Positions 9,095-11,131 of a DNA stretch of 64,000 nucleotides are shown piece by piece (the stretch's first letter is position 1; each line of letters begins with the position of its first letter). The DNA is from Methanobacteriota archaeon. GTDB taxonomy: Archaea; Thermoplasmatota; Poseidoniia; Poseidoniales; Poseidoniaceae. The notes under the pieces are model-generated. The model was not told the origin of the DNA, did not search any database, and saw only the letters and a program-made list of their open reading frames with translations. The stretch lies in the NCBI GenBank assembly GCA_002720095.2, contig PBGP02000022.1, forward strand, positions 62,001 to 126,000, written 5' to 3'. The position numbers and the translations under genes were made by a program.

Positions 9095-10033
9095 ATGCCA
9101 ATCCGCAGAGGTCGCAAAGAGTCCAAAGAAAATCTGGAAAATCATGACTCGATAAGTAATGCTTTCGAGGAACGTAGAGCCTTGATGGAGTCTGAAGGGC
9201 AGTTACCTCAAAGAATCAAAAGAAGTGATGATATAGATCAAGAGCGAATTCGCCGAGAACTAGAGGAAGGCGGTGATTTGCAAAAAATGTTAGGCATCGA
9301 ACAAAATCTTTCAAATCAACAACAAGAGAGTTTGCAAAGATTGGAATCTAAATGGATGTCTGGATTACAAGGTACATACAATGCTGCGGAAGAAGAGAGA
9401 AAACCATTAATGATTTCTTTTGATGATGAAGACAACTTACAACATACAGATATTGGAAGTGTGTCGATTCTAGGAAACGATTTTGATGGTGGTGAGGAAA
9501 TTAGACTAGAATACCCTGGAAAAGGAACTGAATTTTACACACTAGATTATGAAGATGATTCGGGTTGGAGAAAAGGAAAAACTCCTGAACACACTGCTAG
9601 AAATATAGCATCAATAATCAATAAAAGAAGTTCATTAGTACATGCATTTTCTGAATCACATAAAATTATTTTTGAATTACGGGATTCGTCATTAAATCCA
9701 GATTCACTCGTAATTTATGTCGATGACCCAGGAGGCAAGGATATGATTGCAGAAAAACAAGGAATTCAGTTAGATTCCAGAGGAATAACTCTCCAAGATT
9801 ATCAAGAGGTGATTAAACTAGCGCTTGCAGACGGAATAATTACTCCTAGTGAAGATCAAATGCTGTGGTCAATGAGAGAAGTTTTAGGAATTTCTGAGGA
9901 CGAGCATGTGCATATTGTTAGGGCTATGTTTGGTGACGATGTTTTGAAAGAGTGCACTTATTGTAACTCAATGGCTTCACTATATCCAGAACATAAGGCT
10001 TGGTTCTGTGATAGTTGTCAGAATTGGGTTTAA
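9095..10033 (+). CDS. TerB-like domain protein with C-terminal zinc ribbon
   Basis: No named family recognised for the whole 312-residue protein. Residues 1-100 are charged and helical (coiled-coil-like, rich in Glu, Arg, Gln). Residues about 105-220 look like a beta-rich domain. About 225-280 (YQEVIKLALADGIITPSED...LGISEDEH) has the spacing of the TerB-like helical domain, a protein-interaction fold. The C-terminus carries CTYC and CDSC, a zinc ribbon. It precedes the MamK-like actin by 69 bases on the same strand, so a filament-associated role is a testable guess. An AT-rich stretch precedes ATG 9095, suggesting a short leader. Confidence 0.65.
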   Translation: MPIRRGRKESKENLENHDSISNAFEERRALMESEGQLPQRIKRSDDIDQERIRRELEEGGDLQKMLGIEQNLSNQQQESLQRLESKWMSGLQGTYNAAEEERKPLMISFDDEDNLQHTDIGSVSILGNDFDGGEEIRLEYPGKGTEFYTLDYEDDSGWRKGKTPEHTARNIASIINKRSSLVHAFSESHKIIFELRDSSLNPDSLVIYVDDPGGKDMIAEKQGIQLDSRGITLQDYQEVIKLALADGIITPSEDQMLWSMREVLGISEDEHVHIVRAMFGDDVLKECTYCNSMASLYPEHKAWFCDSCQNWV

Positions 10034-10102
10034 TCTGTAAATTTAAAATTTTAATATTTGAGCAAGTTGATAAACCTACACCGTTAGGAGCGTACGGTAG
10101 AG

Positions 10103-11131
10103 ATGGCGAAAGAAGAAACATTGTACATTGGTGTAGATTTAGGTACGTTTCGTTCAGTAATGGTTTCAAGTGCTGGACACGAAGAAGAATTATTAACTGT
10201 TATTGGGACACCAAAAGATGCTATTGCTAGAAATTTTTTAAGAAGAGATGTGCTATTTGGCGAAGAAGCACTCAAAAATAGATTGGCCTTGAACTTATAT
10301 CGCCCATTACAACATGGTGTCATTAAAGATAGTCAAGAAGATAAAAAATTCATTGCTCACTTTATACACCACATGATTGAGTTGGCTAACCCAGAAGAAT
10401 ATGACAATGTAGTGGCCGTTATAGGTGCTCCAGCTGAAGCTAGTTTTGTAGATAAAACAGCAATTTTTGATGCAGCTGCTGGTTCTGTGAATGCTTGTAT
10501 GATAATTTCAGAACCTTTCGCTGTAGCATATGCTTTAGATATGATAGAACATACATTAGTTATAGACATTGGAGCTGGAACAACAGATATCTGTAGAGTA
10601 TATGGTACAATTCCCGAACCAGATGATCAACTTCACATGTCTTATGCTGGAGATTATATTGATGATCAACTCATCAAAGAAATTCAAAAGAAGTATAACG
10701 GTGCTCAAATTACAAAGGACATGGCTCGCAGATGGAAGGAAGAACATAGTTTTACTAAAATTGCAATGCCGAAAAAACCTGTTTTAGTCGATTTTAGTGT
10801 CGAGGGGAAAGCCATGCGATTAGATATTACCGATTGTATAGCTATTGCTTGTGAAACCATAATTGAGCCCATTGTATCTAATGTCAAATCATTAATCAGT
10901 TCTGCAAACCCAGAATATCATGACCAATTCAGACAGAATATGATACTAGGTGGGGGCGGCAGCGGAATTAAAGGACTAGGTGCTATGATAGAATCAAAAC
11001 TGTCTGATTTAGGTGATGTTAAAGTACATACTGTTGACGACCCAATTAAACTAGGAGCCTTAGGTGGTTTAAGATTAAGTATGGAAGTCCCACAAGATTT
11101 ATGGAAAAATTTAACATTATCTTCCAGATAG
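10103..11131 (+). CDS. MamK/MreB-like actin-family filament ATPase
   Basis: The 342-residue protein has the complete actin/HSP70 ATPase signature: phosphate-1 YIGVDLGTFRS (8-18), connect-1 ISEPFAVAYALD (135-146), phosphate-2 VIDIGAGTTDIC (153-164), adenosine motif LGGGGSGIKGLG (near 288) and connect-2 GALGGLRL. The detail resembles MamK, the magnetosome filament, more than MreB or crenactin: VIGTPKD near 33, the GTIPEPDDQ...AGDYIDDQL block after phosphate-2, and a C-terminus like LPxxxWxxL. It lacks HSP70 substrate domains. Nothing magnetosome-like is nearby, so the function is open: cell shape, organelle or plasmid positioning. Follows a TerB-like protein on the same strand. Confidence 0.85.
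   Translation: MAKEETLYIGVDLGTFRSVMVSSAGHEEELLTVIGTPKDAIARNFLRRDVLFGEEALKNRLALNLYRPLQHGVIKDSQEDKKFIAHFIHHMIELANPEEYDNVVAVIGAPAEASFVDKTAIFDAAAGSVNACMIISEPFAVAYALDMIEHTLVIDIGAGTTDICRVYGTIPEPDDQLHMSYAGDYIDDQLIKEIQKKYNGAQITKDMARRWKEEHSFTKIAMPKKPVLVDFSVEGKAMRLDITDCIAIACETIIEPIVSNVKSLISSANPEYHDQFRQNMILGGGGSGIKGLGAMIESKLSDLGDVKVHTVDDPIKLGALGGLRLSMEVPQDLWKNLTLSSR

Follow-up and report, generated by a model that had tools for sequence, protein, structure and literature searches.

A MamK-like actin of Poseidoniales archaea, one of two paralogues with co-distributed partner genes

Introduction

What might a relative of MamK, the actin whose filaments position magnetosomes, be doing in an archaeon of the open sea? 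The question is raised by a gene, here called A, in a 64-kb stretch of DNA (the window; G000:C22:62001-126000) from a member of the Poseidoniales, an order that ranks with the most abundant archaea of the surface ocean. A first-pass annotation, made from the letters of the sequence alone, had read A as an actin recalling MamK more than MreB or crenactin, in a presumed archaeal host. That archaea have MamK-like actins is in itself not new: a tree published in 2009 already remarked on some archaeal sequences within the MamK and ParM branches (PMC2651865). In the open-access literature, we found nothing on MamK-like actins of Poseidoniales or on the partner genes described below, and the portions consulted of two Poseidoniales genome surveys held no mention of an actin cytoskeleton.

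Results

Profile searches, a search of PDB sequences, a fold search and phylogenetic trees agree that MamK is a nearer relative of A than MreB or crenactin is, as the annotation had proposed. The top-ranked model is NCBIfam MamK (NF040964; 367.3 bits, E 6.7e-110, residues 7-338), and we call the protein MamK-like and do not file it as MamK because this score falls just short of the curated cut-off of 400 bits. The other NCBIfam models compared also score below their cut-offs, those for BeeR, in second rank, at 221 bits (cut-off 530), MreB at 89 (293), salactin at 53.5 (400) and crenactin at 15.8 (630); a ParM model gives 18.8 bits and Pfam HSP70 16.2 (cut-off 20.6), and the DnaK of the same genome is a separate gene (L002). 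Among solved structures the best match is MamK (5ljw, 4e-76) and the next is BeeR (8r2n, 7.5e-46). Likewise, the AlphaFold2 model of A (pLDDT 91.0, pTM 0.87) retrieves MamK at rank 1 with a TM-score of 0.88, BeeR being next among the other families. In the trees, which contained no salactin sequence, A lies outside the MreB clade with support of 100/100 and apart from the magnetosome MamKs tested. Neither of the two outcomes named beforehand as telling against the annotation, a place among MreB or Hsp70-like proteins or a lack of conservation in related genomes, was found.

It is informative to set A beside its nearest characterized relatives. With MamK (PDB 5ljv, 5ljw, 5jyg) it shares length, fold and ATPase residues, at 38-39% identity over the whole protein, but it differs in its separate clade, its score below the curated cut-off, its partners and its lack of magnetosome genes nearby; A is thus MamK-like, a member of the MamK superfamily, and not a magnetosomal MamK. 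BeeR, the three-stranded actin of Verrucomicrobiota, is the second-best family by both sequence and fold and likewise occurs outside magnetotactic bacteria, but A lacks the 30-50 aa N-terminal extension of BeeR, and the cross-strand residues E149, E153, R157 and N246 of BeeR are F, T, D and G in A. The salactin of haloarchaea is another archaeal actin and is reported to be closest to MamK (PMC10746226), but by profile score, the measure on which the two were compared, A is far from it.

The reading frame of A contains no internal stop, and all five actin ATPase motif regions that the annotation had listed as intact are present in the alignment (Table 1), connect-2 lying around residues 311-325. 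The catalytic residues E143 and D161 of MamK correspond to E137 and D155 of A, so the ATPase residues expected of a MamK are in place. The resemblance outside the motifs also holds up: VIGTPKD recalls VVGYPKD of MamK, GTIPEPDDQ recalls GTVPGPEDQ, AGDYIDDQL recalls AGNYVDERL, and the C-terminal EVPQDLWKNL recalls ELPPQYWRQL. Within the genus, dN/dS is 0.009-0.025, about 0.02, a rough value given that synonymous sites are near saturation, and A is under strong purifying selection. It is a working gene, real and intact, and not a chance frame; homologues at about 74% identity or more are found throughout those Poseidoniales genera that have it. In one Poseidoniales genome assembled as a single contig (G014), A is split over two frames (L050:7451-8469), which could reflect a frameshift, an error in sequencing or the recent loss of the gene.

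Table 1. Features of the actin locus, in window coordinates
Feature	Coordinates	Strand	Details and basis
Partner candidate of A	9095..10033	+	312 aa; same strand and adjacent in genera inspected; distribution
Gap between the two genes	10034..10102	+	69 bp; sequence read
A, MamK-like actin	10103..11131	+	342 aa (stop codon included), ATG start; NCBIfam, PDB, AF2 model, dN/dS
Phosphate-1 motif GVDLGT	10130..10147	+	residues 10-15; alignment with MamK, BeeR, MreB
Connect-1 region SEPFAVAYA	10508..10534	+	residues 136-144, contains E137; alignment with MamK, BeeR, MreB
Phosphate-2 motif DIGAGTTD	10565..10588	+	residues 155-162, contains D155; alignment with MamK, BeeR, MreB
GTIPEPDDQ, MamK-type segment past phosphate-2	10604..10630	+	residues 168-176; aligned with MamK GTVPGPEDQ
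Adenosine motif ILGGGGSGIKGL	10943..10978	+	residues 281-292; alignment with MamK, BeeR, MreB

The host is indeed archaeal and is assigned to the Poseidoniaceae (MGIIa); its assembly (1.8 Mb, 82% complete) contains a second paralogue, B (G000:C7:16086-17072), that is 47% identical to A. One or both of the two occur in 118 of 194 Poseidoniales genomes, and the family that we take to be Poseidoniaceae (f1) carries them without exception (97/97). In the other family, taken to be Thalassarchaeaceae (MGIIb; f2), they are confined to genera g15, g17, g19 and g22 (21/97 genomes) and are absent from the other 76; isolated absences of A or of B are in incomplete assemblies. Each paralogue is monophyletic, and the two jointly form one clade (support 100/99 and 98/99 in two tree runs), and since both families are represented in A and in B, the duplication, as judged from these sequences, predates the split of the two families. 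The annotation's suggestion of an archaeal cytoskeletal filament family stands as far as a conserved archaeal actin is concerned and is refined in that A belongs to an ancient pair of paralogues, each with a conserved partner. The genomes that carry the actins tend to be larger. It is also worth considering that their distribution seems to resemble that of algal-oligosaccharide degradation, which is reported for MGIIa and the basal MGIIb subclades (PMC6336850), the genus codes having been matched to MGIIb subclades by inference.

Each paralogue has a partner gene of almost the same distribution. The partner of A precedes it in the same direction in all genera inspected, and the 69-bp gap in the window is compatible with a single transcript of the two. 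A homologue is found in 114 of 194 Poseidoniales genomes. Co-occurrence of the two genes, which had been put forward as a check, is close: all 19 f2 genomes that carry the partner have an actin (19/19), and it is present in none of the 76 without one (0/76). Joint loss of adjacent genes in assembly gaps inflates this fit for single genomes, but such gaps do not explain the absence of the partner from 76 genomes. Full-length relatives are confined to Poseidoniales in a profile search of 293 Thermoplasmatota genomes, the matches outside that order being weak and to a short C-terminal segment alone. The product comprises a disordered or helical N-terminus, a predicted beta domain, a TerB-like helical segment (TerB/ENT matches weak and under the cut-off) and C-terminal zinc-ribbon-like CxxC pairs; a heptad score detected no coiled coil in it. 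Its predicted structure has a pLDDT of 73.6, falling below 50 in residues 1-44 and in a large part of 90-115, and the sole fold-search hit under 0.001 has a TM-score of 0.22, which is no usable match. Most relatives of this protein have an N-terminal CPRC...CxxC zinc-ribbon-like motif, which those of the window's genus lack.

The partner of B, here called Bp, is conserved, about 400 aa long and strongly heptad-patterned, the coiled-coil call being based on a simple home-made heptad score and weak Pfam hits. In other genera it lies 3′ of B; in the window's genus it is about 62 kb away on the same contig (G000:C7:79420-80607), and it has been retained though unlinked. With Bp displaced in the genome of the window, B is followed there by a methionine sulfoxide reductase-like gene (L040:8081-9637, L198). 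Bp occurs in 109 of 194 Poseidoniales genomes, and 17 of its 18 carriers in f2 have an actin. The Fisher values for co-occurrence ignore phylogeny, and a small number of losses may be all that the partner distributions reflect.

MamK-like actins are also present in other archaea. Among the 293 Thermoplasmatota genomes, the only strong match outside Poseidoniales is in G266, a 5-Mb assembly of family f33 with 7% contamination, in which the gene (L042:7128-8225) scores 435 bits, above the NCBIfam MamK cut-off, and has archaeal-looking flanks (Kae1/TsaD and others); the 618-aa protein that follows it is helical and charged in appearance, under the home-made heptad threshold. A weak match of 77 bits is found in G396. 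In the phylum to which a Methanoperedens record (G413) belongs, 16 of 295 genomes have a MamK-like match, and in the loci examined a protein with heptad-rich segments stands right after the actin, the heptad score covering eight of these proteins. In two Methanoperedens records, this gene carries an ArlD/E domain (PF04659), and in two other Halobacteriota records the gene in that position has a related N-terminal domain; one halobacteriotal example is a 1940-aa, mostly coiled-coil protein with the ArlD/E-related domain at its N-terminus (L190:2640-8462). The gene directly after the archaeal MamK-likes beyond Poseidoniales encodes a coiled-coil or probably coiled-coil protein, as does Bp, but these partners have no detectable sequence kinship to those of Poseidoniales. 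In the loci that we read as Methanosarcinales-like (L186, L187, L188, L191, L192, L193), the actin and its coiled-coil neighbour differ from the Poseidoniales arrangement in that most adjoin genes for polyphosphate kinase 1 and exopolyphosphatase, identities that were profile-tested for L187 only; chemotaxis genes (MCP, CheW, CheR) also adjoin the actin in L186 and L188. A single clade of all archaeal MamK-likes is not rejected (AU p 0.63), and the deep branching is unstable, Methanoperedens being sister of Poseidoniales in one tree run and within the Methanotecta group in the other.

The annotation had reported no magnetosome genes in the window, and this is borne out: MamM, MamB-type CDF, MamO, MamA, MamN and others were sought, and no credible match was found in the 64 kb, so that the setting in a magnetosome cluster by which a MamK is recognized is absent there. 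Magnetosome-cluster proteins were not found at the archaeal loci tested either. They were confirmed at three loci (L132, L081, L076), whose MamKs lie in other tree clades than A and B.

Discussion

Starting from the family, the catalytic residues, the predicted fold, the duplication, the conserved partners and their matching distribution, all of which are directly established, the reading that we favour, at a probability of roughly 0.55, is that A belongs to an ATP-driven scaffold or positioning filament coupled to a cargo or a cell site through partner proteins. By homology, A, and B with it, would bind and hydrolyse ATP, and by analogy it may assemble into double-stranded filaments resembling those of MamK. 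Such filaments could serve as an intracellular scaffold or positioning track, with the upstream gene product as putative adaptor for A and Bp for B, each presumably in physical contact with its actin; candidate cargoes include a cell-pole, archaellum or adhesion assembly, the nucleoid or a storage body. We favour positioning because a MamK-type actin accompanied by a coiled-coil partner recurs in archaeal lineages, as it does in a deep-branching magnetotactic bacterium in which MamK acts jointly with a coiled-coil protein network (PMC12748827). The retention of Bp even where it is unlinked from B also supports it. On the other side, similarity of fold among actins goes with very different functions, and the partner of A has neither a coiled coil nor a usable fold match.

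A different possibility is that A and B form dynamically unstable filaments that transport replicons, chromosomes included, in the manner established for ParM and proposed for salactin. The reported closeness of salactin, a DNA-linked haloarchaeal actin, to MamK (PMC10746226) invites this comparison, but A scores far under the salactin and ParM models, and no partition genes were seen beside A or B. Furthermore, the actins are dispensable for segregation in the f2 genomes without them, because they are absent from 76 of the 97, and we consider a segregation role unlikely.

Rather improbable, too, is a filament devoted in particular to the archaellum or a polar cap, one that would place the archaellum or the ArlCDE complex. 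The ArlD/E domain next to the Methanoperedens actins and the related domain in Halobacteriota point in this direction, as does the overlap of actins with ArlJ in 13 f2 genomes, which is above chance (Fisher 0.0015, without phylogenetic correction). Yet a DE-like domain was sought in the Poseidoniales partners and none was detected, and the actin genes of the window's genome are on other contigs than its archaellum cluster (L039). ArlJ, taken from that cluster, is present in 121 of 194 Poseidoniales genomes, and a strict co-occurrence with it is rejected because genera split both ways: the actins but not ArlJ occur in g17 and g22, and ArlJ but not the actins in g14 and g21.

A strict archaellum link is thus disfavoured, and so are MreB-type control of cell shape and magnetosomes. 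That A guides growth of the cell envelope would accord with its sharing a superfamily with MreB and with the reported correlation of archaeal actin homologues with elongated shape (PMC7613921), but its score of 89 bits against the MreB cut-off of 293 and its fully supported place outside the MreB clade make this unlikely. That A is a true magnetosome MamK and its host a cryptic magnetotactic archaeon, or that the gene was recently transferred or stems from contaminating bacterial DNA, is scarcely credible: its best solved match is a magnetosome MamK, but no magnetosome proteins were found in the window and the tested archaeal loci, A does not group with clades whose loci hold MamM, MamO, MamA or MamN, and its synteny is kept in many Poseidoniales assemblies, among them one that consists of a single contig.

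The two conserved MamK-like actins, together with the partners conserved alongside them, give an uncultured lineage a cytoskeleton that can be tested directly. More tentatively, and with the odds against it, one can imagine that the MamK-type actins of Poseidoniales, Methanotecta and another Thermoplasmatota family are one old archaeal branch whose members position cell structures by way of coiled-coil adaptors, magnetosome MamK then being one specialized use of a much older bacterial and archaeal positioning cytoskeleton. A positioning cytoskeleton may be older and more widespread than magnetosomes, and the coiled-coil neighbour that recurs across archaeal groups, parallel to the coiled-coil proteins that work with MamK in magnetosome formation's own setting, lets one ask how actin-based positioning arose before magnetosomes.

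Bacterial relatives of A are widespread, occurring in Planctomycetota, Desulfobulbaceae, Nitrospirota, Acidobacteriota and others. At least 16 bacterial MamK-likes have a gene of the N-acetylmuramoyl-L-alanine amidase (Amidase_3) type directly upstream (L061, L062, L063, L064, L066, L067, L069, L071, L073, L075, L078, L086, L088, L115, L121, L123), of which L061 has the Pfam match and the remaining 15 form its BLAST cluster, in a neighbour survey that missed 20 loci. This neighbourhood points to a function linked to the cell wall in that branch of bacteria.
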